Shown: piece by piece, positions 14,705-27,801 of the stretch
How positions within the stretch are numbered: the stretch's first letter is position 1
Layout of the letters: each line of letters opens with the position of its first letter
DNA from: Variovorax sp. PBL-H6
GTDB taxonomy: Bacteria > Pseudomonadota > Gammaproteobacteria > Burkholderiales > Burkholderiaceae_C
Assembly: GCF_901827155.1 (NCBI RefSeq)
Contig: NZ_LR594659.1
Location: 4,854,501 to 4,918,500, forward strand
DNA: 64,000 bases
Direction: 5' to 3'
Program-made: the position numbers and the translations under genes
Notes under the pieces: model-generated
What the model was told of the DNA's origin: nothing
The model's input: only the letters and a program-made list of their open reading frames with translations
Databases searched by the model: none

Positions 14705-15373
14705 TCAGCGCCCGAACTCGTGATTCAGCCCGACCGAGAAGCTGCGCACGCCGCTCGGCCCGGTGCGCGCCGCGCTGAGGTCGATGCTGATCAACGGCGT
14801 GATGCTGACGCGTGCCCCGAAGCGCGAGGTCCAGAGGCCGGAGGCGCGGTTGCGCTCAGCGATGAGCGAGACCGTGTCGTTCAGCGCCCACTCGCCCGCC
14901 AGCCCGCCGCGGCCGGTGCGTGCGCCGCTGCCGGTGGCCCAGTCGGCGCCCAGGTTGGCATGGACCATCAGGCTCTCGGTGGCGCGCCATGTCACGGGAA
15001 CCACGAACTGCCCGCCGTCGCGTCCGCCCCGCCGGGGCTGCTGAGAGATGTAGCCCATCGACACTGCTGCACTCCAGCGGGCTTCGGGTGTCGTTCCGAA
15101 GAAGGTCCATTTGAGCTGCGGCCCAAGCACATGGACCGTATCGCCCGGCACAGAGATCCGGTCGATGTTGAGCCCGAGCTCCACCGGCCCGACGCGGCAG
15201 GCCGGCCCCAGGTGCCACACCGTGCTGTGCTCGCTGCGCACGCGTGTCCCCCAGAACTCGTACTGGCACTGGCCGGGATCGAGCATGCCTGCATCGTCCA
15301 CGTCGAAGTGTCCGCCGGCCTGGGCCGATGTTGCAGCGAGGCAAAGGGAGACGGTCCACGCGCGTGCGATCAT
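14705..15373 (-). CDS. Exported hypothetical protein, probable outer-membrane beta-barrel
   Basis: A 222-residue protein beginning MIARAWTVSLCLAATSAQAG, a clear signal peptide cleaved after AQA. The mature part has alternating hydrophobic strands ending in aromatic or charged residues (GWLWTSRFGAR-like, FSVGLNHEFGR), and the final residues resemble the C-terminal strand of small outer-membrane barrels although the last residue is R, not F. The C-x-Y-E-F motif near 35 and a conserved pair of cysteines could form a disulfide. I do not recognise the family. The ATG at 15373 is the only start that gives the signal peptide. Confidence 0.65.
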   Translation of the reverse strand: MIARAWTVSLCLAATSAQAGGHFDVDDAGMLDPGQCQYEFWGTRVRSEHSTVWHLGPACRVGPVELGLNIDRISVPGDTVHVLGPQLKWTFFGTTPEARWSAAVSMGYISQQPRRGGRDGGQFVVPVTWRATESLMVHANLGADWATGSGARTGRGGLAGEWALNDTVSLIAERNRASGLWTSRFGARVSITPLISIDLSAARTGPSGVRSFSVGLNHEFGR

Positions 15374-15422
15374 GGCCGCGGATTCTAGGAGCGAGCCGGT
15401 CAGTTCACCCGGGCACAGACCC

Positions 15423-16439
15423 TCACAGCTCGAACTGCGGCTGCAGCTCGCGGATGCGCTTGATCGCCACGCCGGCGGCTGCCGTGCGGGTCTCGACGCC
15501 AAGCTTCACGTAGACGCGTTCCAGGTGCTTCTTGGCGGTCGCCGGGCTGCTTCCGAGGATTTCGCCGATGTCGCGGTTGGTCTTGCCCTTGACCACCCAA
15601 TAGAGCACCTCGGCCTCGCGTGCCGTGAGCTTCAGGCTGAGGCTCATGGCCTCGATCACCGCCGAACCGGAGACCTCGCGCATGATGATCAGCCAGTCGT
15701 CGCCCGTCTCGTCCTGCCCGGTCTGTTGGTGCAGGCGCAGGTTGAGCGTGGCAGCGCCGTGCGCAATGGCGAGAACGGGCGGCTCGATCTGGTGCTGGCG
15801 CGCATCCGGCAGGTGCCGGTGCAGCCACTCCAGCACCATCGGCGGCGTCGCGGGCGCGCTGGTGCCGCAGTAGCGCTGCAGCAGCTCGCGCGCCAGTGCG
15901 GTCTGCCAGACGAGCCTGCCTTCGGGCATGCGCACGGTGAAGCTGGCGTAGCCGAAGGCATCGAGCGCATTGCGCGCCTGGCCGGCCTGCTGCGCATCCT
16001 GCCGCGCGCGGCGCGCGCCCTGAAGATGCACGTTCATCCGCGCCAGCACCTCCTTGGGCTTGATCGGCTTGGTGACGTAGTCGACACCGCCCGCCTCGAG
16101 CGCCGCGACGAGGTGCTCGGTCTCGGTGAGACCGGTCATGAAGACGATCGGGATGTGGGCCGTCGCCGCATCGGCCTTGAGCCGGCGCGCGACCTCGAAG
16201 CCGTCGATGCCCGGCATCATCGCATCGAGCAGCACGATGTCGGGCCGCGCTTGCGCAGCACGCTGCAGCGCCTGCTCGCCGCTGGTGGCGACCAGCACGG
16301 CGTAGCCCGATTCGTCCAGCGCGTCGTGCAGCACGGCGAGGTTGTCGGGCACGTCGTCGACGATCAGCACCAGGTCGCCGGTGCCGGCATCCTCGCGCAG
16401 GCTCCTGATCAGCGGCGGCGGGCTCTCTTCCCGGCTCAT
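15423..16439 (-). CDS. Response regulator: receiver plus LuxR-type DNA-binding domain
   Basis: A 338-residue protein. The receiver domain (about 20-140) has the acidic pair VDD (28-29), phospho-acceptor D72 in VLLDAMMPG and the lysine in TKPIKP. The middle region (about 155-260) looks PAS-like. The C-terminal helix-turn-helix (about 265-330) contains [26 protein letters not shown]. It is therefore a transcription factor controlled by phosphorylation. Its start overlaps the kinase stop by 3 bases (16436-16439), so both are made from one transcript and it is the obvious phospho-target. The target genes are probably nearby; urease is the candidate. Confidence 0.92.
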
Positions 16440-19400
16440 GGGGTGCTCCCCGCCGCGGCCAACGCGCGGCTCATGGCCTCGAACTGGAACTGGCGCGCCA
16501 GCCCGCGTTGCGCGCCAGTCCAGGCCGCGCACTCGGGCTGGGCGGCGTCGATGGCATCGAGCTCGTTCATGATGCCGCGGAAGTAGCCCAGGCTCACTGC
16601 ATCGCCGAGCACGCGCAGGCGCGCAGCGTCGGGCAGCACCACTGCAGGCCCGGCCGGAGCGGGCTGCGCTGCAGGGGCGCTGTCGGTCCATCGCAGCGCG
16701 AGCCGGCGCTCCAGCCACTCGAGCAGTTCGCTGTGGCGCACGGGCTTGACGAAGAAGTCCTCGGGCACGATGCCGACGTCGTTGTCCAGCCGCTTGTCGA
16801 ACGCGTTGGCCGAGACGATGGCCACCTGCGCATCGGCCAGGCCGACGGCGCGGGCGCGGCGGATGGTTTCCCAGCCGTCGATGCCGGGCATCGCCAGGTC
16901 CACGAACATGGCATGCGGATGCCAGCCGGCCGCGACCAGGTCGAGCGCATCATGGCCGCTGGCGGCGGTGCGCAGCTCGAAGCCCAGAGGCGCAAGCAGT
17001 TGCACGAGCAGCTCGCGGTCGGCCTCTTCGTTGTCGACCACCAGCAGCCGCCGGCGCGGGCCTTCGTAGCCGCTGCGCTGACGCGGCGTCGCCGCCGCGA
17101 CGCGCCGGATGCCCGCGCCGCTCGTGTGGTGCACGCGCGGCAGAAAGAGCCGCACCCGGAACAGCGAGCCCGCGCCCGGCGCGCTCTGCACCTTCATCTC
17201 GCCGCCCATCAGGTCGATCAGCATCTTCGCGATGGTCAGGCCCAGGCCCGCGCCCGGCGCCGACGGGCCGGCGCTGGCACCACGCGCGAAGGGCTCGAAG
17301 ATGCGGCCCAGCTCCTCGGCCGACATGCCGGGGCCCGTGTCCTCGACCTCGATGGCCGCGAACTCGCGCGCGTAGCGCAGGCGCAGCGTCACGCGCCCGC
17401 TGGCGGTGAACTTGATGGCGTTGCCCAGCAGGTTGATGAGGATCTGCCGCACACGCTTCTCGTCGGCTCGAACCAGCTCGGGCAGATCGCCTTCGGGTTC
17501 GAAGTGAAAGGCCAGGCCCTTCTCGGCCGCCTGCAACTCGAACATGTCGGCCAGCTCGACCATCAGGTCGGCGAACTGCATGGGCCGGGCGTGAAGCGTG
17601 AGCTTGCCGGCCTCGATGTGGGCGATGTCGAGCGTGCCCTCGATCAGCGACAGCAGGTGCTCGCCGCCACGCTTGATCACCGCCACGGCCTGCCGCCGGT
17701 GCGGCGGCACGGCCGCGTCCTCGCCCATGAGCTGCGCGTAGCCGAGGATGCTGTTGAGCGGCGTGCGCAGTTCGTGGCTGATGGCGCTGATGTAGCGGCT
17801 CTTGGCCTGGTTGGCCTGGTCTGCTTGCTCGCGGGACTGCTCGGCCGTCTGCTTGGCAGCCTGCAACGCGCGGTCGGTCTCGCGGTGCAGTTCGATCTCG
17901 CGCATCAGCAGACGCGTCTGGCGATTCGATTCCTCCTGCGCCACCTTGCGGCTCTGGTGCGCCAGCACCAGCCACCAGGCGACGATGCCGGCGATGAGCA
18001 TCAGCGCCATGTAGGCCTTGAGGAAGCCGGAGCGCAGCGAAGTGGTGGACTGCGCCATGTCGGCCAGCGCGCGCTCGCCGATGCCACGCAGTTCCTGCTG
18101 GTAGAGCACGCCGAACACCGCGGCAAGCAAGGGCACCACGATCAGCATGAGCAGCAGGAAGTGTCCGAGCCCGGTGTCGAGATAGGGCCAGACCCGTCGC
18201 GGCAGCAGCCAGCGCAGGGCGCCCGACCATTGCGCCGACAGGCTCGCCATGGGCTTGCACAGGTCGCCGCAACGCGCATCGAGCGTGCAGCACAACGAGC
18301 AGATCGCGCCCTGGTAGGCCGGGCAGTGCGCCATGTCCGGGCCCTCGTAGTCGCGCTCGCAGATCACGCAACGCTGCGTGCTCAGGCGCCGATGGCTGCC
18401 GACTTCGGATTCGACCCGCGCCCAGCGCACTGCGCGCTGCCCTGTTGCCGGTGCGAAGGGCGCGGCACCGCATTCATCCGACAGCCGCGCGATGTAGTAC
18501 TTGCCACGCGTGGCCCAGGCGATCAGCGGCGCGGTGGCGAAGGCGGTGCCCAGTGCGATCAGCGCGGAGAAAGCCTGCGCGGTCCGCCCGAAGGCGCCCA
18601 GGTGCGCGCTGATGGACAGCACCGAGGCCAGCGCCATCGCGCCCACGCCGACCGGGTTGATGTCCCACAGGTGCGCGCGCTTGAACTCGATGCCCGGCGG
18701 CGACAGCCCCAATGGCTTGTTGACCACGAGGTCGGCCACCACGGCCATCATCCAGGCGATCGCGATGTTCGCGTACAGGCCCAGCACATCGCCCAGGGCC
18801 TCGAACACGTTCATCTCCATCAGCATGAAGGCGATCAGCGCGTTGAACACCACCCACACCACGCGGCCCGGATGGCTGTGCGTGACACGCGAGAAGAAGT
18901 TGCTCCAGGCGAGCGAGCCGGCGTAGGCGTTGGTGACGTTGATCTTGAGCTGCGATATCACCACGAACAATGCCGTGGCCGCCACCGCCCAGCCGTACTG
19001 CGGGAACACGTACTCGTAGGCGGCCAGGTACATCTGGTTCGGGTCCACCGCGCGCTCAGGGGGCACCATGTGGCCGATGGCGAGATAGGCCAGCAGCGCC
19101 CCGCCCAGCATCTTGAGCACGCCCAACACCACCCAGCCCGGGCCGCCCGCCAGCACGCCGGCCCACCAGCGGCCGCGGTTGGCGGCGGTGCGCACGGGCA
19201 TGAAGCGCAGGTAGTCGGCCTGCTCGCCCATCTGGGTGATGAGCGCGATGCCGACGGTCAGCGCGGCACCGAAGAGGTGCAAGTCAAACCCGGTCTCGCT
19301 CGCCTTGACGCCGTTGTAGTGCGCAATGCCCGCGAACGCACCAGGATCGCGCACCAACACATAGACGAAGGGCACCACCAGCATCACCAGCCAGATGGGC

Positions 19401-20035
19401 TGGGTCCAGACCTGCAGCCGGCTGATGGCCGAGATGCCGTGCGTCACCAGCGGGATCACCACCAGCGCGCAGACCAGGTAGCCCCAGGCCGCCGGGATGC
19501 CCAGCGCGAGTTCCAGCGCGTAGGCCATCACCGCCGCCTCGAGCGCAAAGAAGATGAAGGTGAAGGAGGCGTAGATCAGCGAGGTCAACGTCGAGCCGAT
19601 GTAGCCGAAGCCCGCGCCACGGGTGAGCAGGTCCATGTCCACGCCGTAGCGCGCGGCATAGACGCTGATCGGCAGGCCGGCGAGGAAGATGATCAGCCCC
19701 GTGACCAGGATGGCCCAGGCCGCGTTGACGAAGCCGTACTGCACCAGCAGCGTCGCGCCGACCGCCTCGAGGATCAGGAAGGAGGCGGCGCCACCGAAGG
19801 CCGTGCTCGCCACCCGCCATTCGGACATGCGGCGAAAGCGCTGCGGCGTGAAGCGCAGCGCGTAGTCCTCCAGCGTTTCGCGCGCCACCCAGCTGTTGTA
19901 GTCGCGCCGGACCTTGACGATGCGCTGCGGCGCGTCGTCGCTGGCGAGCGGGGGAACGGCGGTCGAGTCCACATCGCCGGAGGTGCAGATTCCGTGCCAT
20001 CGGCACGACTGTTGCAATGCCCCTGGGTTGCCCAT
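16436..20035 (-). CDS. NCS1-permease-like sensor fused to hybrid histidine kinase
   Basis: A 1199-residue fusion. Residues about 70-515 are an NCS1 (nucleobase/allantoin/hydantoin) transporter-like region with about 12 helices and a [11 protein letters not shown] stretch. Residues 556-593 form a cysteine-rich knuckle (C556, C559, C571, C579, C582, C583, C589, C593) likely to bind metal. Two more helices (about 624-646 and 672-693) and a coiled coil lead to HisKA with H754 in AISHELRTP, the ATPase domain (N872, DTGPGMS, GLGL) and a receiver with D1046. It is an inner-membrane sensor or sensor-transporter. The upstream start at 20035 overlaps a possible ureA promoter, and the GTG at 19972 gives a shorter alternative. 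Confidence 0.9.
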
Positions 20036-20045
20036 AATGACCCGC
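19993..20045 (+). promoter_or_regulatory. Putative ure promoter with upstream dyad CGTGCC-N3-GGCACG
   Basis: A perfect 6-bp dyad, CGTGCC-ATC-GGCACG (19993-20007), is followed after 4 bp by TTGCAA (20012-20017), a 15-bp spacer and CATAAT (20033-20038), resembling sigma-70 elements with a short spacer. Transcription would begin near 20045, about 27 nt before the ureA ATG. A short spacer plus an upstream dyad suggests activator-dependent expression. The site lies inside the longest reading of the kinase gene, which is an argument for its shorter start. Promoter identity is inferred by eye. Confidence 0.4.
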
Positions 20046-20071
20046 CACGACGAAGCGATCCACTCCCGCCC

Positions 20072-20374
20072 ATGGAACTGACACCGCGCGAAAAAGACAA
20101 GCTCCTGATCTTCACCGCTGCACTGCTGGCAGAGCGGCGCCGCGCACGCGGGCTCAAGCTCAACTATCCCGAAGCCGTGGCACTGATCTCGGCCGCCGTG
20201 ATGGAAGGCGCGCGCGACGGCAAGACCGTTGCCGCGCTGATGAGCGAGGGCCGCAGCATCCTGTCGCGCGCCGACGTGATGGAAGGTGTGGCCGAGATGA
20301 TCCCGGACATCCAGGTCGAGGCCACGTTCCCCGACGGCACCAAGCTCGTCACGGTCCACCAACCCATCGTCTGA
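20072..20374 (+). CDS. ureA: Urease gamma subunit UreA
   Basis: A 100-residue protein of normal gamma-subunit length: [52 protein letters not shown] and [11 protein letters not shown]. It forms part of the (alpha-beta-gamma)3 cytoplasmic urease. It is the first gene of the ureA-J-B-C-E-F-G run, and in most betaproteobacteria ureD precedes it. Here the divergent kinase fusion occupies that place. The intergenic gap is only 36 bp if the long kinase start is used. Confidence 0.98.
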
Positions 20375-20398
20375 CCGACACCTCATCAAGAGCACACC

Positions 20399-21001
20399 AT
20401 GACCCTGCGCCTTCTTCGCCAAGCGCCCCTGCTTCTGATCGCCGGGTTGCCGCTGGCCGCGGCCGCCCACACCGGCGCCGACGCCGGCCTGCATCACGGC
20501 CTGGCCACCGGCTTCCTGCACCCGCTGACCGGTGCGGATCACCTGGCGGTGATGGTGGCGGTGGGACTGTGGAGCGCCCTCGCCGCGCGCCGCGCCTGGC
20601 CCGACCTGCTGTGGGCGCCACTGGGCTTTGGGCTGATGCTGCTGGCAGGCGCGATGCTGGGGCTGGCGGGCCCCACGCTCCCGGCCGTGGAGCCGATGAT
20701 CGCGGCCTCGCTGCTGGTGCTGGGGCTGCTGGTCTTCACGCAGCGCCGGCTGCCGGCCCCGGCCGCGGCGGCGCTGGTCGGCGTGTTCGCGCTGTTCCAC
20801 GGCGTCGCACACGGGCAGGAACTGGCCGGGGAAGCGGGCGCCGCGTTGACGCTGGCCGGCATGCTCGCTGCAACGGCGCTGCTTCACGCCGCTGGAATTG
20901 CGGTGGGCTGGGCGCTGCGCCGCGGGCACCGCTGGATGCCGCGGGTCGCAGGCGCCGCGGTCACGATCTTCGGTATCGCATTGCTCGGCGGCATCGCATG
21001 A
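20399..21001 (+). CDS. ureJ: HupE/UreJ-family nickel permease
   Basis: A 200-residue inner-membrane protein with a signal-like first helix and about six transmembrane helices. The family signatures [16 protein letters not shown] (about 41-56) and [12 protein letters not shown] (about 126-137) contain the histidines proposed to ligate nickel. Within a urease operon it supplies Ni(II) for the active site. The gene lies between ureA and ureB, as in other Burkholderiales, and its stop overlaps the ureB start (ATGA). Confidence 0.93.
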
Positions 21002-21306
21002 TCATTCCCGGCGAACTCATCACCGACGAGGGCGAACATGTGCTCAACCCAGGCCGCCGCACGCTGACGCTGGTCGTGCTCAACGCCGCCGACCGGCCGA
21101 TCCAGGTCGGCTCCCACTACCACTTCGCCGAGACCAACGGCGCGCTCGACTTCGACCGCGAGGCTGCGCGCGGCATGCGGCTGAACATTGCCTCTGGCAC
21201 GGCGGTGCGCTTCGAGCCCGGCCAGCAACGCACGATCGAACTGGTGGACTTCGCCGGCGACCGGGTGGTCCATGGGTTCCGCGGACTGGTTCAAGGGAAG
21301 CTCTGA
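20998..21306 (+). CDS. ureB: Urease beta subunit UreB
   Basis: A 102-residue protein with [37 protein letters not shown] and [12 protein letters not shown], all diagnostic of the beta subunit. Length is normal. The ATG overlaps the ureJ stop. The UreC start follows after 2 bp, so the structural subunits are made in one translational block. Confidence 0.98.
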
Positions 21307-21308
21307 GC

Positions 21309-23027
21309 ATGGCAACGATCGGGCGGCGTGCCTACGCCGAAATCTTCGGGCCCACCGTGGGTGACCGCGTGCGGCTGGCCGACACCGACCTGGTGATCGA
21401 GGTCGAGGACGACTACACCCTGCGCGCCGGCGGCTACGGCGAGGAGGTCAAGTTCGGCGGCGGCAAGACGATTCGCGACGGCATGGCCCAATCGCAACGC
21501 ACGCGCGCCGAGGGCGTGGTCGACACGGTCATGACCAACGCGCTGATCCTCGACCACTGGGGCATCGTCAAGGCCGACATCGGCTTGAAGGGCGGGCGCA
21601 TCGTCGCCATCGGCAAGGCCGGCAATCCGGACGTGCAACCGGGCGTGGACATCGTCATCGGCCCGGGCACGGAAGTCATCAGCTGCGAAGGCAACATCGT
21701 GACCGCCGGCGGCATCGACAGCCACATCCATTTCATCTGCCCGCAGCAGATCGAGGAGGCACTGGCCTCGGGCATCACCACCATGCTGGGCGGCGGCACC
21801 GGCCCGGCGACCGGCACCTTCGCGACCACGGCGACACCGGGCCCCTGGCACATCGAGCGCATGTTGCAGGCGGCCGACGCCTTTCCGATGAACCTCGGCT
21901 TTCTCGGCAAAGGCAACGCCAGCCTGCCCGCCGCGCTGCACGAGCAGATCGACGCCGGCGTGATCGGCCTCAAGCTGCACGAGGACTGGGGCACCACGCC
22001 ATCGGCGATCAGCAACTGCCTGGACGTGGCCGATGCCACCGACACGCAGGTGGCGATCCACAGCGACACGCTGAACGAGTCGGGCTTCGTCGAGAACACG
22101 ATCGCGGCTGTCAAGGGCCGCGGCATCTGCGCATTCCATACCGAGGGCGCGGGCGGCGGGCATGCGCCCGACATCCTGCGCGTGGTGGGCGAGCCGAACT
22201 TCCTGCCCTCTTCCACCAACCCGACGATGCCGTACACCGTGAATACGCTCGACGAGCACGTCGACATGCTGATGGTGTGCCACCACCTCGACGCCGGCAT
22301 TCCCGAGGACCTCGCCTTTGCAGAGAGCCGCATCCGCAAGGAGACCATCGCGGCCGAGGACATCCTGCACGACCTGGGCGCCATCAGCATGTTCAGCTCC
22401 GACAGCCAGGCCATGGGGCGGGTGGGCGAGGTGATCATCCGCTGCTGGCAGACGGCGCACAAGATGAAGGCCCAGCGCGGCAAGTCGCCCGACGACGGCA
22501 GCCGCAACGACAACGGACGCGCCAGGCGCTACGTGGCCAAGTACACGATCAACCCCGCCATTGCGCACGGCATCTCGCACGAGGTGGGCAGCATCGAGGT
22601 CGGCAAGTGGGCCGACCTGGTGGTGTGGAAGCCGGCCTTCTTCGGCATCAAGCCCTTCACCATCCTGAAGGGCGGCAGCATCGCGATGGCCGCGATGGGC
22701 GACCCCAACGCCTCGATCCCGACGCCGCAGCCGGTGCACTACCGGCCGATGTTCGGTGCCTTCGGCGGCGCGCTGGCCAGGAGCTCGCTGACCTTCGTCT
22801 CGCAAGCCGGACTGGCGGCGGGCATCGGCGAGCGCTATGGCCTTGCCAAGACGCTCAGCGCGGTGAAGAACGTTCGCGGCGTGCGCAAGCAGGACATGGT
22901 GCACAACGGCTACACGCCGAAGATGGAGATCGATGCGCAGACCTATGCGGTGCGGGCCGACGGGCAGTTGCTCACCTGCGATCCGGCGGTGGTGTTGCCG
23001 ATGGCGCAGCGGTATTTTCTGTTCTAG
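21309..23027 (+). CDS. ureC: Urease alpha (catalytic) subunit UreC
   Basis: A 572-residue protein. The nickel and catalytic residues are all present: H139 and H141 (IDSHIHF), carbamylated lysine K222 (GLKLHEDWG), H251, H277, flap C324-H325 (MVCHHLD) and D365. It hydrolyses urea to ammonia and carbamate. The flap cysteine is the common form. I see no frameshift or missing ligand, so the enzyme should be active once nickel and accessory proteins are supplied. Confidence 0.99.
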
Positions 23028-23087
23028 GCGACTCGCCAGTGTCGCTCTCCGCTAACGCGCGCAGTACCGTATTCTTTACCAGTTGAC

Positions 23088-23681
23088 ATGCTCACAGCCA
23101 ATAAACTCATGCCCCAGGGCGGCGGCCTCGCGTCCGTGCTCCTGAAACGCGCCGCCACCGTCGAACTCGACTGGGACGTGCGCCAGAAAAGCCGCTTCGA
23201 CGCGACCGACTCGCAGGGCCGCCAGCTCGGCGTGTTCCTGCCGCGAGGGACGTTGGTGCGCGGCGGCGACGTGCTCGTGGGGGAAGACGGCTCGTTGATC
23301 AAGGTGACCGCGGCAAGGCAGCCGGTGCTGGTCATCACGCACTGCAGCGAGCACGGCAAGCCCTTCGACCTCATGCGCGCGGCCTATCACCTGGGCAACC
23401 GGCACGTGCCCATCGAGCTCAAGCCCGACCACCTGAAGATCGAGCCCGATCACGTGCTGGCGGCCATGCTGCGCTCGATGCACCTGATCGTGCGCGAGGC
23501 CGAGGAGGCCTTCGAGCCCGAAGGCGGCGCCTATGGGGCGCAGGGCCACTCGCACGGTGCCGCGCCGGTCGGGCCGGTGCTGCATCCGGATGCCTACGCC
23601 GCGGCGCCCGCGGACGATCACGGCCACGATCACCACGGCAACTCGCACGATCACGCGCATGGCCGCGGCCATTCGAATTGA
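23088..23681 (+). CDS. ureE: Urease nickel metallochaperone UreE
   Basis: A 197-residue protein with the UreE domains ([47 protein letters not shown]) and a histidine-rich C-terminal tail with many [20 protein letters not shown] repeats (about 178-197) that binds several nickel ions. It delivers nickel to the UreDFG complex. The TGA overlaps the ureF ATG (TGATG). It starts 60 bp after ureC. Confidence 0.97.
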
Positions 23682-24370
23682 TGGCTGACGCGCCGGGCTC
23701 CCTGCCCGCGGCCAGCCTGCTGCAGCTGATCTGGCTGGCCTCGCCGGCGCTGCCGGTGGGCGGCTTCTCCTATTCGGAAGGCCTGGAGGCGGCCATCGAA
23801 TGGGCCGGCATCGGGAACGAGGAATCAGCGGCCGGCTGGCTGGTCGACCAGCTGCACCTGAGCCTGGCGCGCGGCGACCTGGCCGTCGTCGCCCAGGCCA
23901 TCGGTGCCTGGCGCAACGGCGAGCTCGCACGCATCCGCGATCTCAACGACTGGGTGTTCCAGACCCGCGAATCGGCCGAGTTCCGGCTGCAGACCGAACA
24001 GATGGGGCGTTCGTTCGTCGAATGGCTCAAGCTGCGGCACGCCGATGCCGCCGATGTCTTCGAGACTCTGCCCGCGAGCTATCCGATCGCCTTCGCCTTT
24101 GCGGCCAGCCGCACCGAGGCGCCAACGCGCGACGCCTGCCTCACCTTCGCCTTCGGCTGGGCCGAAAACATGGCGGCTGCTGCCGTCAGGGCCGTGCCGC
24201 TGGGCCAGAGCGCGGGCCAGCGCATCCTCGGCCGCCTGGCCGCCGACATTCCCGGTGCAGTGGACCGGGCCCTCGCGCTGGCGGATGATGAGCGCCAGGC
24301 CTTCTCTCCCATGCTCGCCGTTCTGTCGGCGCGCCACGAAACGCAGTACTCGCGCCTTTTTCGAAGCTGA
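23681..24370 (+). CDS. ureF: Urease accessory protein UreF
   Basis: A 229-residue protein: [26 protein letters not shown] is the family opening, and [21 protein letters not shown] and [26 protein letters not shown] follow. It acts as GTPase regulator of UreG during nickel insertion and normally binds UreD. A TTG at 23678 is an alternative start, but the ATG at 23681 overlapping the ureE stop is preferred. Confidence 0.96.
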
Positions 24371-24383
24371 TCCCAACCCCGCC

Positions 24384-25034
24384 ATGAGCTCCGCCCTGCA
24401 CCACATCCCCCATCGCACCAAGAGACTGCCGCCCCTTCGCGTGGGCATCGGTGGCCCGGTCGGCTCCGGCAAGACCACCCTGCTGGAAATGCTCTGCAAG
24501 GCGATGCGCGACAAGTACGACCTGATCGCCATCACCAACGACATCTACACCAAGGAAGACCAGCGCCTGCTCACAGTGGCGGGCGCGCTGCCTGCGGAGC
24601 GCATCATGGGCGTGGAGACCGGCGGCTGTCCGCACACCGCGATCCGCGAGGACGCCTCGATCAACCTCGAGGCCATCGACCGCATGCTGGCCGAGTTTCC
24701 CGATGCGGACGTGGTCTTCGTCGAGAGCGGCGGCGACAACCTGGCGGCCACCTTCAGCCCCGAGCTCAGCGACCTCACCATCTACGTGATCGACGTTGCA
24801 GCCGGCGAGAAAATCCCACGCAAGGGCGGTCCAGGCATCACCAAGAGCGACCTGTTCGTGATCAACAAGACCGATCTTGCGCCCTATGTGGGGGCCGACC
24901 TCGGCGTGATGGAAGCCGACACCAGGCGCATGCGCAAGCAGCGGCCCTTCGTGATGACCAACCTCAAGACCAAGGACGGGCTGGACGCGGTGGTCTCCTT
25001 CATCGAGGACCGAGGGATGCTGGCCGAGCACTGA
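24384..25034 (+). CDS. ureG: Urease accessory GTPase UreG
   Basis: A 216-residue SIMIBI GTPase with P-loop [13 protein letters not shown] (about 24-36), the nickel-binding CPH motif ([14 protein letters not shown]), VESGGDN and NKTD. It drives nickel delivery to urease with UreE, UreF and UreD. It ends the operon, with a 171-bp gap to the next gene. There is no ureD on either side within the window. Confidence 0.98.
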
Positions 25035-25478: not shown

Positions 25479-27242
25479 TCAGGTCGGCGCCTCTTCGTAC
25501 CACGTGCCTTTGGCCAGCATCACGCGGTGGTGGCCCTGCCCCGCGGGAATCATCGGGAAACAGTTCTCTTGCGCCGCCACCTGCACGTCGAGGAAGAACG
25601 GGCCGGGGTAGTTCAGGCATTCCGCGAGGGCGTCGTGCAGTTCGGCCGGATCGGCCACACGCCGCGCGCCCCAGCCGAAGGCCCGAGCCAGCGCAACGAA
25701 GTCGGGCAGTGCCTCGTTCCAGCTGTGGCTCAGGCGGTTGCCGTGGTTGAGCTCCTGCCACTGGCGCACCATCCCCATGTAGCCGTTGTTGCAGAGCACC
25801 AGCTTGACGGGGGCGCGGTGCTGTACGGCGGTGGAGAGCTCCTGGATGTTCATCAGCACCGAGGCGTCGCCGCTCACGCAGACGGTGAGCGCCTCGGGGT
25901 GCGCGATCTGCGCGCCGATGGCGGCGGGCAAGCCGTAGCCCATGGTCCCGGCGCCTCCCGAGGTCAGCCACCGCCGCGGGCCCTCGAAGCGCAGGTACTG
26001 CGCGGCCCACATCTGATGCTGGCCGACATCGGTGGAGACGATGGCATCGCGGCCGGCGAGCGCCTCTTGCAGCGAGACCATCAACTGCTGCGGCAGGATC
26101 ACATCGCAACGCGGCGCGAAATCCAGGCAGCGCCGCGAGCGCCAGCCCTCGATGCGCTTCCACCAGGGCGCAAGGCGCTCGGGGGCCAGCTCGCCGAGAG
26201 CGGGTGTGGCGAGCAGCGCGTCCAGCACCGTGCCGCAGTCTCCGACCATCGGCACGTCGACCTTGACGACCTTGTCGATACTCGCCGGATCGATGTCGAT
26301 GTGGATCTTGCGCGCCTGCGGGCAAAACTCGGCCACCTTACCGGTCACGCGATCGTCGAAGCGCGCGCCGACGCAGAGCACCAGGTCGGCTTCATGCATG
26401 GCCAGGTTGGCCTGCAGGGTGCCGTGCATCCCCAGCATGCCGAGGAAGCGTGGGTCGGAGGCCGGAAACGCGCCCAAGCCCATCAGTGTCAGTGTGCAGG
26501 GCGCGTCGAGCCGGCGCACCAGCGTGGCGAAAGCCTTGCAGGCGTCCGGCCCGGCGTTGACCAGGCCTCCACCGCCGTAAAGCACGGGCCGGCGCGCGGT
26601 GGACAGCAGATCGGCGGCGCGCGCCAGGCTGGTTCGCGGCAGCCGGGCGTCGGCGCCGCTGCGGTACCGACGCACCGCTGCATCCTCGTCGGCCTCGCGG
26701 CCGAGCAGCGCCTGCTGCACATCCTTGGGCACGTCGAGCAGCACCGGCCCGGGCCGGCCACCCGCCGCGACTTCCAGCGCGAAGCGAATGCGGGACGGGA
26801 TCTCCTCCGCCGAGCGCACTTGGTGGTTCCATTTGGTCACCGGCCGCGACATGCCGAGGGCGTCGCTTTCCTGGAAGGCATCCGTGCCGATCACCGCGGT
26901 CGCGACCTGACCGCTGATGCACAGGATCGGCACTGAATCGCTGATCGCGTCGAGCAGGCCCGTCATCGTATTGCCCACGCCGGGACCGGAGGTGACGAGC
27001 ACCACTCCGACCTTGCCGGTGCTGCGCGCATAGCCCTCCGCCGCGTGCACGGCGGCCTGCTCGTGCCGCACCAGCACATGGCGCAGCCGCGGCTCGTCGA
27101 AGAGCGCGTCGTAGAGGGGCAGCGCCGCGCCGCCGGGGTAGCCAAAGACCGTGTCGACACCGCACTCGACCAGCGTCTGAAGCACTGCCTGGGCGCCGTT
27201 GCGCAGCGAGAGAAGCGCCGGCATGGGAACAAGAGATTGCAT
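25479..27242 (-). CDS. Acetolactate synthase large subunit (IlvB type)
   Basis: A 587-residue thiamine diphosphate enzyme. The catalytic glutamate E61 lies in [16 protein letters not shown], the flavin/TPP regions read GTDAFQESD and KWNHQV, and the TPP motif is GDASVLMN followed by [18 protein letters not shown]. The GDA form of the motif is common in alphaproteobacterial-like enzymes. It makes 2-acetolactate or 2-aceto-2-hydroxybutyrate for branched-chain amino acids, in the cytosol. No small regulatory subunit (ilvN) is adjacent. An Lrp/AsnC gene is divergent 28-46 bp away and probably controls it. Start could be the ATG at 27242 or at 27224. Confidence 0.88.
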
Positions 27243-27270
27243 GCGTCGATTTTTCCGCCTTGGGGGCAGA

Positions 27271-27801
27271 ATGTGCTTCGTTTGTTTGATGGATTTGGCG
27301 GTCTTCTTGAATATCAATCGAAAAAAGACAGGTAACAGCGAAGAACTTTTTGACAAAATCGACATGGCGATCCTTCGCGTGCTGCTGCACGACTCGCGCA
27401 AGACATTGCAGGAGATCGGGGCCGAGGTCGGCTTGGGGGCCACCGCTTGCTGGAGCCGCATCAAGAAGCTGGAGGCCAGCGGCGTGATCAAGCGCTACAC
27501 GGTCGATGTGGACGCGGCCAAGCTGGGCTACCAGGACTCCGTGATCGTGCAGCTCACGCTGGAAAGCCACAGCGACGAGACGCTGTACGAATTCGGCCGC
27601 GTGCTGGCAAGCATCCCGGAGGTCCAGGAGGCGTACCTGGTCTCAGGCGACTACGACTACTACATCCGCATTGCGGTTCGCGACACGCGAGATTACGAGC
27701 GCCTGCTGCGCGAGCGGCTCTACAAGATACCGGGCATCCGCCACAGCCAGTCGCACTTCGTGCTGCGGGTGCTCAAGGAAGCCAGTGCGCCCCTGATCTG
27801 A
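27271..27801 (+). CDS. Lrp/AsnC-family transcriptional regulator
   Basis: About 176 residues. The N-terminal helix-turn-helix reads [49 protein letters not shown], followed by a RAM ligand domain with [17 protein letters not shown]. AsnC proteins sense amino acids and bend promoter DNA. The start is unclear: ATG 27271 has a GGGGGC upstream, whereas ATG 27289, or a TTG at 27307 in the AT-rich stretch, would give family-typical lengths. It is divergent from the acetolactate synthase gene, so autoregulation and control of that enzyme are likely. Confidence 0.9.

Follow-up and report, generated by a model that had tools for sequence, protein, structure and literature searches.

A hybrid sensor kinase with an NCS1-like membrane domain beside the urease genes of Variovorax sp. 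PBL-H6, a candidate sensor of urea and short-chain amides

Histidine kinases fused to a transporter domain are described for the SLC5/STAC group (CbrA, CrbS, RpuS), in which, according to the accessible parts of the sources, a separate response regulator is used, uptake and use of nutrients are controlled and CrbS is a hybrid kinase; in CbrA, the transporter and kinase domains lie in a single chain (PMC13022988; PMC7096432), with a STAC domain as linker. A nitrogen-compound transporter fused to a histidine kinase is found in Ks-Amt5, the ammonium sensor kinase of an anammox bacterium, which has the Amt fold. The DNA analysed here, a stretch of 64,000 nucleotides from Variovorax sp. PBL-H6 (NCBI RefSeq assembly GCF_901827155.1, contig NZ_LR594659.1, positions 4,854,501 to 4,918,500; hereafter the window), carries next to a urease operon a hybrid sensor kinase which shares the layout of these systems and differs from them by an NCS1-like membrane domain, a urea/amide gene context and a linker made of an eight-cysteine knuckle and two helices.

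Known urea and amide sensors such as UreR and AmiC/AmiR are soluble proteins restricted to few groups. The fmdCABDEF cluster of Methylophilus methylotrophus encodes a short-chain amide/urea ABC transporter, a formamidase and a porin, genes which also lie beside many relatives of the window kinase; it is reported to be induced by formamide and urea (PMC10781810), and the accessible text mentions a putative positive regulator and names no sensor kinase. In Ectopseudomonas guguanensis G3, a hybrid kinase and a LuxR regulator lie beside a second urtABCDE cluster, with fmdA near in locus-tag order (PMC13296017); judged by gene set, from the description only, this kinase is probably a member of the family treated here, and the available part of that description gives no transporter domain, ligand or operator. 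A Bradyrhizobium urt-like operon beside acetamidase and amidase genes was judged a likely amide carrier, as stated in the accessible portion of the source (PMC3098086). No description of an NCS1-kinase fusion was found in the open-access literature, and the automatic names of relatives combine kinase terms with 'purine-cytosine permease-like', no further function being assigned among the matches listed.

The window kinase is read here as a putative sensor of urea or short-chain amides which would, through the regulator encoded next to it, activate uptake genes, often together with amidase genes, via a palindrome, urease being set by nitrogen limitation; as a reading of sequence, this is given a probability of roughly two in three. 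Architecture, fold family, gene context, the palindrome with its co-occurrence, and promoter motifs were computed. The parts of the sensor pair are as follows.

16436..20035, (-) strand: hybrid sensor kinase carrying the NCS1-like membrane domain (ATG 20035 in the longest reading; GTG 19972 is the likelier start)
18476..19909, (-) strand: NCS1-like membrane domain (residues about 43-520 of the longest reading)
18257..18370, (-) strand: eight-cysteine knuckle (residues 556-593; model weakly RING-like)
17948..18193, (-) strand: additional pair of membrane helices (about residues 615-652 and 667-696)
17606..17806, (-) strand: HisKA with H754
17141..17464, (-) strand: HATPase_c
16715..17044, (-) strand: receiver domain with D1046
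15423..16439, (-) strand: response regulator with receiver (D72) and LuxR/GerE helix-turn-helix, starting within the kinase stop (ATGA)

Read from ATG 20035, the kinase comprises 1199 residues, in which Pfam profiles placed HisKA at 744-810, HATPase_c at 858-965 and the receiver at 998-1107, with the phosphoacceptor His and Asp of a hybrid histidine kinase in place; residues before 744 gave no Pfam match at E <= 1, the profiles used including none for STAC. An earlier note on this DNA, made from its letters alone, had described the same order of NCS1-like membrane domain, eight-cysteine knuckle, two helices, histidine kinase (H754) and receiver (D1046), and had seen a LuxR-type regulator overlapping the kinase stop and a divergent urease on the other strand, all of which was confirmed. 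The domain searches it had proposed recovered HisKA, HATPase_c and receiver and missed PF02133; the NCS1 placement was obtained by profile comparison and a structure model. Among the matches listed, the nearest relatives of the kinase were Variovorax proteins of 97% identity.

Because Pfam and PDB sequence searches with the membrane domain returned nothing significant (PF02133 matched 0 of 32 family members at E <= 1), profile-profile and fold comparison were used. Using hhalign, the domain was matched to NCS1 at 97.7% probability versus 5.3% for SLC5 (E 0.0074), and SLC5 was rejected as a rival scaffold on these values; the protein is accordingly not assigned to the SLC5/STAC kinases, and it is not classed as a transporter either. 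The predicted structure of the domain had the NCS1 fold, with CodB and Mhp1 as top fold matches. As judged from profiles and model, the membrane domain is built on a divergent NCS1 scaffold: it resembles the NCS1 transporters (Mhp1, CodB, PF02133) in fold and profile, and differs from them in being missed by PF02133, in three of four aligned substrate-site positions and in the fused kinase. A stand-alone NCS1 protein (L254:8273-9766), which passed PF02133 at 36.4 bits and matched the kinase profile at 3e-49, may be a bridge to the transporter ancestor.

At least 8000 protein clusters matched kinase residues 1-700 at E <= 0.001. Using the single protein as query, matches were obtained in 62 of 349 genomes of an order sample (weak or partial in G027, G156, G164 and G223), and using a kinase profile in 54 of 398 genomes of a phylum sample (weak or partial in G393 and G580); by these sequence matches, the family is large and spread over Pseudomonadota, the phylum within which it was searched. 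The 80 closest loci, the best 80 of at least 573 confirmed relatives, lean to Comamonadaceae because they are the best matches of a larger scan. In 70 of them ureA diverges from the kinase. No ureA was found in L007, L043, L066, L069 and L079 (four of these five start at most 200 bases from a contig end), ureA was present and farther away in L019 and L080, L056 had a partial ureA about 10 kb distant, L059 had urtA after the regulator, and in L076 none was found.

The order search contributed 60 stretches and the phylum search 46 to a wider set of 106, in 103 of which the kinase was identified. Genes for urease, amidase/formamidase or a urea/amide ABC transporter lay near the kinase in 91 of the 103 loci; by class, urease (ureA-D) was found in 30, formamidase/amidase in 61 and an UrtA/FmdD-like binding protein in 68. 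The commonest combination, amidase and transporter without urease (44 loci), faces the kinase as a transporter-amidase operon. Nine of the 17 gene labels were Pfam-checked with one representative each, FmdC passing weakly. Of the 60 order-search stretches, 53 had the regulator gene after that of the kinase. The survey of neighbourhoods suggested in the earlier note thus places the fusion mainly away from urease in the wider family, an outcome which the note had itself counted against its proposal, and beside urease among the closest relatives.

A tree was built from 88 kinases, namely those of 87 of the 103 loci and the window (at least 1050 residues and a recognisable start). Thirteen of 17 urease-only kinases, including that of the window, fell into one clade of 31 rows (SH-like approximate likelihood ratio test 100), which further included five rows having both gene sets, a single fmd-only row and 12 rows that carried no group label; another five rows with both sets stood outside. 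Context labels changed 7 times on the tree versus a mean of 24 in shuffles. Two kinase copies each were present in G204, G264 and G706, with urease next to the first and an fmd-type operon next to the second. Loci that represent such genomes with two kinase-regulator pairs are L114/L162, L116/L148 and L243/L244; canonical urtA and the FmdD-like gene bear different palindrome variants there. Shorter kinase frames (885-945 residues) were noted in L268, L276 and L165, on stretches with FmdA.

For the substrate site, the kinase was aligned with Mhp1, in which we take W117, Q121, W220 and N318 to line the substrate site and S312 and T313 the Na2 site. At 17% identity, W117 aligned with F162, Q121 with E166, W220 with a gap, S312 with L363, T313 with K364 and N318 with N369, so that, in this low-identity alignment, three of the four substrate-site positions are changed. 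E166, K364 and N369 were invariant in 88 aligned relatives, and position 162 was Phe in 75 and Leu in 13. The altered residues suggest, within the limits of an alignment at that identity, a small ringless ligand and no sodium site.

These data bear on the proposal of the earlier note that the NCS1 domain senses compounds such as uracil, allantoin or hydantoin, from the breakdown of purines or pyrimidines, and adjusts urease to them. The scaffold itself, the known carriage of such compounds by NCS1 proteins and the adjoining urease in 70 of the 80 closest loci speak for it, but the recurring neighbours are a urea/amide ABC transporter, formamidase and amidase: the gene clusters present in at least 10 of the 106 stretches were all labelled as urea/amide transporter, formamidase, amidase or urease, with no purine/pyrimidine genes (rarer neighbours were not annotated). 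In addition, neither of the two site tryptophans of Mhp1 is kept (W117 to Phe or Leu, W220 to a gap), and Q121 is replaced by an invariant Glu. Sensing of such compounds, with urease tuned to them, is regarded as very improbable and finds no support in these data. Doubtful, though to be taken seriously, is a true transceptor, in which the domain would also transport urea or amides and the kinase would read transport or flux. The model retains a transporter fold, and CbrA sets a precedent for transporter and kinase domains in one chain; against this, a separate binding-protein gene of a urea/amide ABC transporter was present in 68 of 103 stretches, and sodium coupling is argued against because the Na2-site Ser and Thr align with L363 and the invariant K364.

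The eight knuckle cysteines were invariant in 88 of 88 aligned relatives. The cysteine region, modelled together with the linker and following helices, reached a predicted local distance difference test score (pLDDT) of 90 and a predicted template modelling score (pTM) of 0.59, and a long helix connects the linker region to the kinase in the model. Foldseek returned a RING finger (1wim, E 0.74, probability 0.87) as top row and several more RING structures among 29 rows, none of which was significant, so that a RING-like nature is a suggestion only. A profile of the cysteine region and linker was run against the 398 genomes, asking whether the knuckle accompanies other sensors; HisKA matches dominated, and among the matches listed, the cysteine columns were reached by relatives of this family and by one other row, which starts at profile column 33 and belongs to a 623-residue frame of G627, in a kinase that lacks the transporter part. 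At L369:9902-12690, a kinase was noted whose match starts at residue 582; it has no transporter part, and a regulator of this type is encoded convergently to it.

The candidate operator was recognised in 36 regions of 60-900 bp between the kinase and a facing UrtA-like gene (41 regions were under 900 bp). TACGT-N6-ACGTA was present exactly in 22 of these and at >= 8 of 10 positions in 33, a count which is not independent, the motif having first been seen in the same 36 regions; at the same threshold, spacers other than 6 gave 1 to 8 of 36, and shuffles 5.6%. In the 106 stretches (1.97 Mb), the form TACGY-N6-RCGTA occurred 83 times versus 2 times after Markov shuffling. A site lay within about 350 bp upstream of 51 of 69 UrtA-like genes and 45 of 104 kinases (often in a shared intergenic region), of 7 of 55 FmdA, 1 of 4 FmdC-like and 13 of 807 unlabelled genes, and of none of the ABC cluster (0/195), regulator (0/78) or ureA (0/24) genes.

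The window itself contains no TACGY-N6-RCGTA. Of five such sites in the source genome (6.87 Mb; reversed-pattern control, 60 per strand), one lies 169 bp before the start of a urtA match (TIGR03407, 601 bits) and about 80 bp before its likely ATG; this urtA, about 3.3 Mb from the window, is the only match above the TIGR03407 cut-off in that genome. Among 20 Comamonadaceae genomes, all 14 canonical urtA genes carried TACGCC-N4-GGCGTA or a similar variant, of which seven were from genomes with a verified kinase (G000, G049, G204, G264, G323, G706, G715) and seven from Variovorax without kinase verification, and FmdD-like genes carried TACGT-N6-ACGTA forms in 11 of 14; of the 32 urtA-like matches, two lacked a stretch for scanning. 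Upstream of the 14 urtA genes, conservation was highest in the palindrome, and a CAGACT/TAGCAT-like block came after it at a possible -10 position, an arrangement that would fit an activator near the -35 region.

The regulator is of the NarL/FixJ type (LuxR), and all 77 regulators aligned keep the receiver Asp. In its recognition helix, the window regulator departs from the family form SPRTVNKHLE, and its palindrome differs as well; the two changes are not strictly coupled, because L116 combines a family-form helix with a TACGCC-type site. Binding of the regulator to the palindrome being proposed from such co-occurrence, the palindrome might instead be the site of another regulator and merely travel with these operons. 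This is judged decidedly unlikely, as the site was absent at urtA in both kinase-free Comamonadaceae genomes (G234, G294) versus its presence in 7 of 7 with a verified kinase, and is often placed between the kinase and the facing operon. Furthermore, in 80 other genomes of the order without a kinase match (E <= 1e-5), 22 had UrtA-like genes, and their 30 loci held no exact site and one at 9 of 10.

The region between kinase and ureA was compared with the sigma-54 consensus GGcacg-N4-ttGC, as given in the accessible part of its source (PMC5491218). Two GG-N10-GC elements of the -24/-12 type, scoring 11.1 and 10.9 of 11.6, stand back to back in the window, one base apart.

19984..19999, (-) strand: sigma-54-type -24/-12 element facing the kinase, TGGCACGGAATCTGCA
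20001..20016, (+) strand: sigma-54-type -24/-12 element facing ureA, CGGCACGACTGTTGCA

In 77 kinase/ureA intergenic regions, elements of score >= 10 of 11.6 faced ureA in 71 and the kinase in 66 (shuffles 0.7%). In 53 of the 77 loci, an in-frame start codon coincided with the predicted first (44) or second (9) base of the kinase transcript; in the window this is GTG at 19970-19972 (-), which is by these features the likelier, leaderless kinase start, as ATG 20035 would sit upstream of the kinase-facing promoter. In the 36 fmd-type regions, an element faced the kinase in 25 at >= 9 and 13 at >= 10, and the operon in 3 and 1, respectively (shuffles 10.6% and 0.8%). Since the elements mostly face the kinase, many members seem to have their sensor pair under nitrogen control and the facing operon under that of the regulator; by its promoter motif, the urease of the window's lineage looks nitrogen-controlled, too. 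According to the available part of the source, urease and urt genes fall in a Burkholderia cenocepacia ntrC mutant, and urease is among the targets shared with sigma-54 (PMC5491218). An ntrC deletion of Acidovorax citrulli is described in the accessible text as still growing on urea, which speaks against an indispensable role of NtrC there (PMC10052978).

Whether the regulator acts on ureA in cis was weighed at this point. A degenerate site could let it serve as co-activator or repressor at the sigma-54 promoter, in the source genome as elsewhere; the divergent kinase/ureA layout is conserved, and 30 of 77 loci have a looser urt-type site (>= 10 of 12) in the region separating kinase and ureA (shuffles 0.45%), through which other members of the family may control urease directly. 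No such site is present in the window or in its nearest Variovorax relatives (L003-L011, L017), and a urease role of the regulator is consequently without sequence support in this lineage; the two window elements leave one base between them, and a LuxR-type regulator without an AAA+ domain cannot open a sigma-54 promoter on its own. Such control in cis, source genome included, is thus considered unlikely. Of the reading in the earlier note, the NCS1-type sensor fused to a hybrid kinase with a LuxR-type regulator of its own, the link to urea nitrogen and the conserved adjacency to ureA are supported; direct tuning of ureA in the source genome is not, the predicted operator lying before urtA, outside the window, and the ureA promoter being of the sigma-54 type.

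Several observations weigh against the sensor-activator reading. The substrate-site mapping depends on an alignment at 17% identity; 18 of 69 UrtA-like genes have no exact site, and 3 of 14 Comamonadaceae FmdD-like genes have none; and in the source genome the pattern is rarer (5) than its reversed control, with no explanation for the other four copies. Looser sites precede ureA in other Comamonadaceae, and the Variovorax lineage of the window has none near ureA. The urea clade does not include four of the urease-only kinases (L167, L258, L260, L269), and by the labels used, 12 of 103 loci are without a urea/amide gene; six of the 12 are on stretches ending at contig ends (L123, L143, L144, L171, L270, L287), and L118 carries ureF, ureG and hupE.

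The mechanism proposed would run as follows, the ligand, the direction of regulation, the phosphotransfer and the part of NtrC being deduced from sequence. Because both have sigma-54-type promoters, the sensor pair and, in the window, urease would be set together by nitrogen limitation, with NtrC or a different enhancer-binding protein as mediator. A ligand, urea in the window's clade and formamide- or acetamide-like short-chain amides in other clades, would bind at the old substrate site and shift the membrane domain, and the signal would pass via the eight-cysteine knuckle, the two helices and the long helix to the kinase, which would phosphorylate the adjacent LuxR-type regulator. The latter may then bind the 16-bp TACGY-N6-RCGTA and activate a urea/amide ABC-transporter operon, led by urtA or fmdD, and sometimes formamidase as well; in the source genome, the distant urtA is the predicted target. 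The ligand would thereby set uptake and, in fmd-type operons, amide hydrolysis.

The divergent urease genes of the window are listed below.

20072..20374, (+) strand: ureA
20399..21001, (+) strand: hupE/ureJ
20998..21306, (+) strand: ureB (start read from sequence)
21309..23027, (+) strand: ureC
23088..23681, (+) strand: ureE
23678..24370, (+) strand: presumably ureF, so named from place and sequence (no NCBIfam match; same place in relatives)
24384..25034, (+) strand: ureG, which we take it to be from its sequence

No ureD lies within the window; the sole UreD match of the source genome is G000:C1:1582367-1582987 (window = 4854501-4918500), about 17 kb from the urtA match. Adjoining ureG, a TPP-dependent enzyme (25479-27491, (-) strand) faces an AsnC-type regulator (27199-27801, (+) strand). 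At 14705-15382, (-) strand, a 225-residue frame without Pfam match was noted; many of the closest loci carry a relative of it downstream of the regulator.

Taken further, and only tentatively, with somewhat less than even odds, the nucleobase-transporter scaffold may now serve solely as a receptor for urea and short-chain amides and no longer transport, with two site tryptophans lost, an invariant Lys where sodium was once bound and a RING-like eight-cysteine domain as its link to the kinase, in a large and widespread class with a definable operator, two branches of which coexist in one cell with separate operator variants. On the sensor-activator reading, the family would gain a ligand class, an operator with its target operon and a hypothesis at the level of single residues, and another transporter fold, with a different linker domain, would join the known transporter-kinase fusions.

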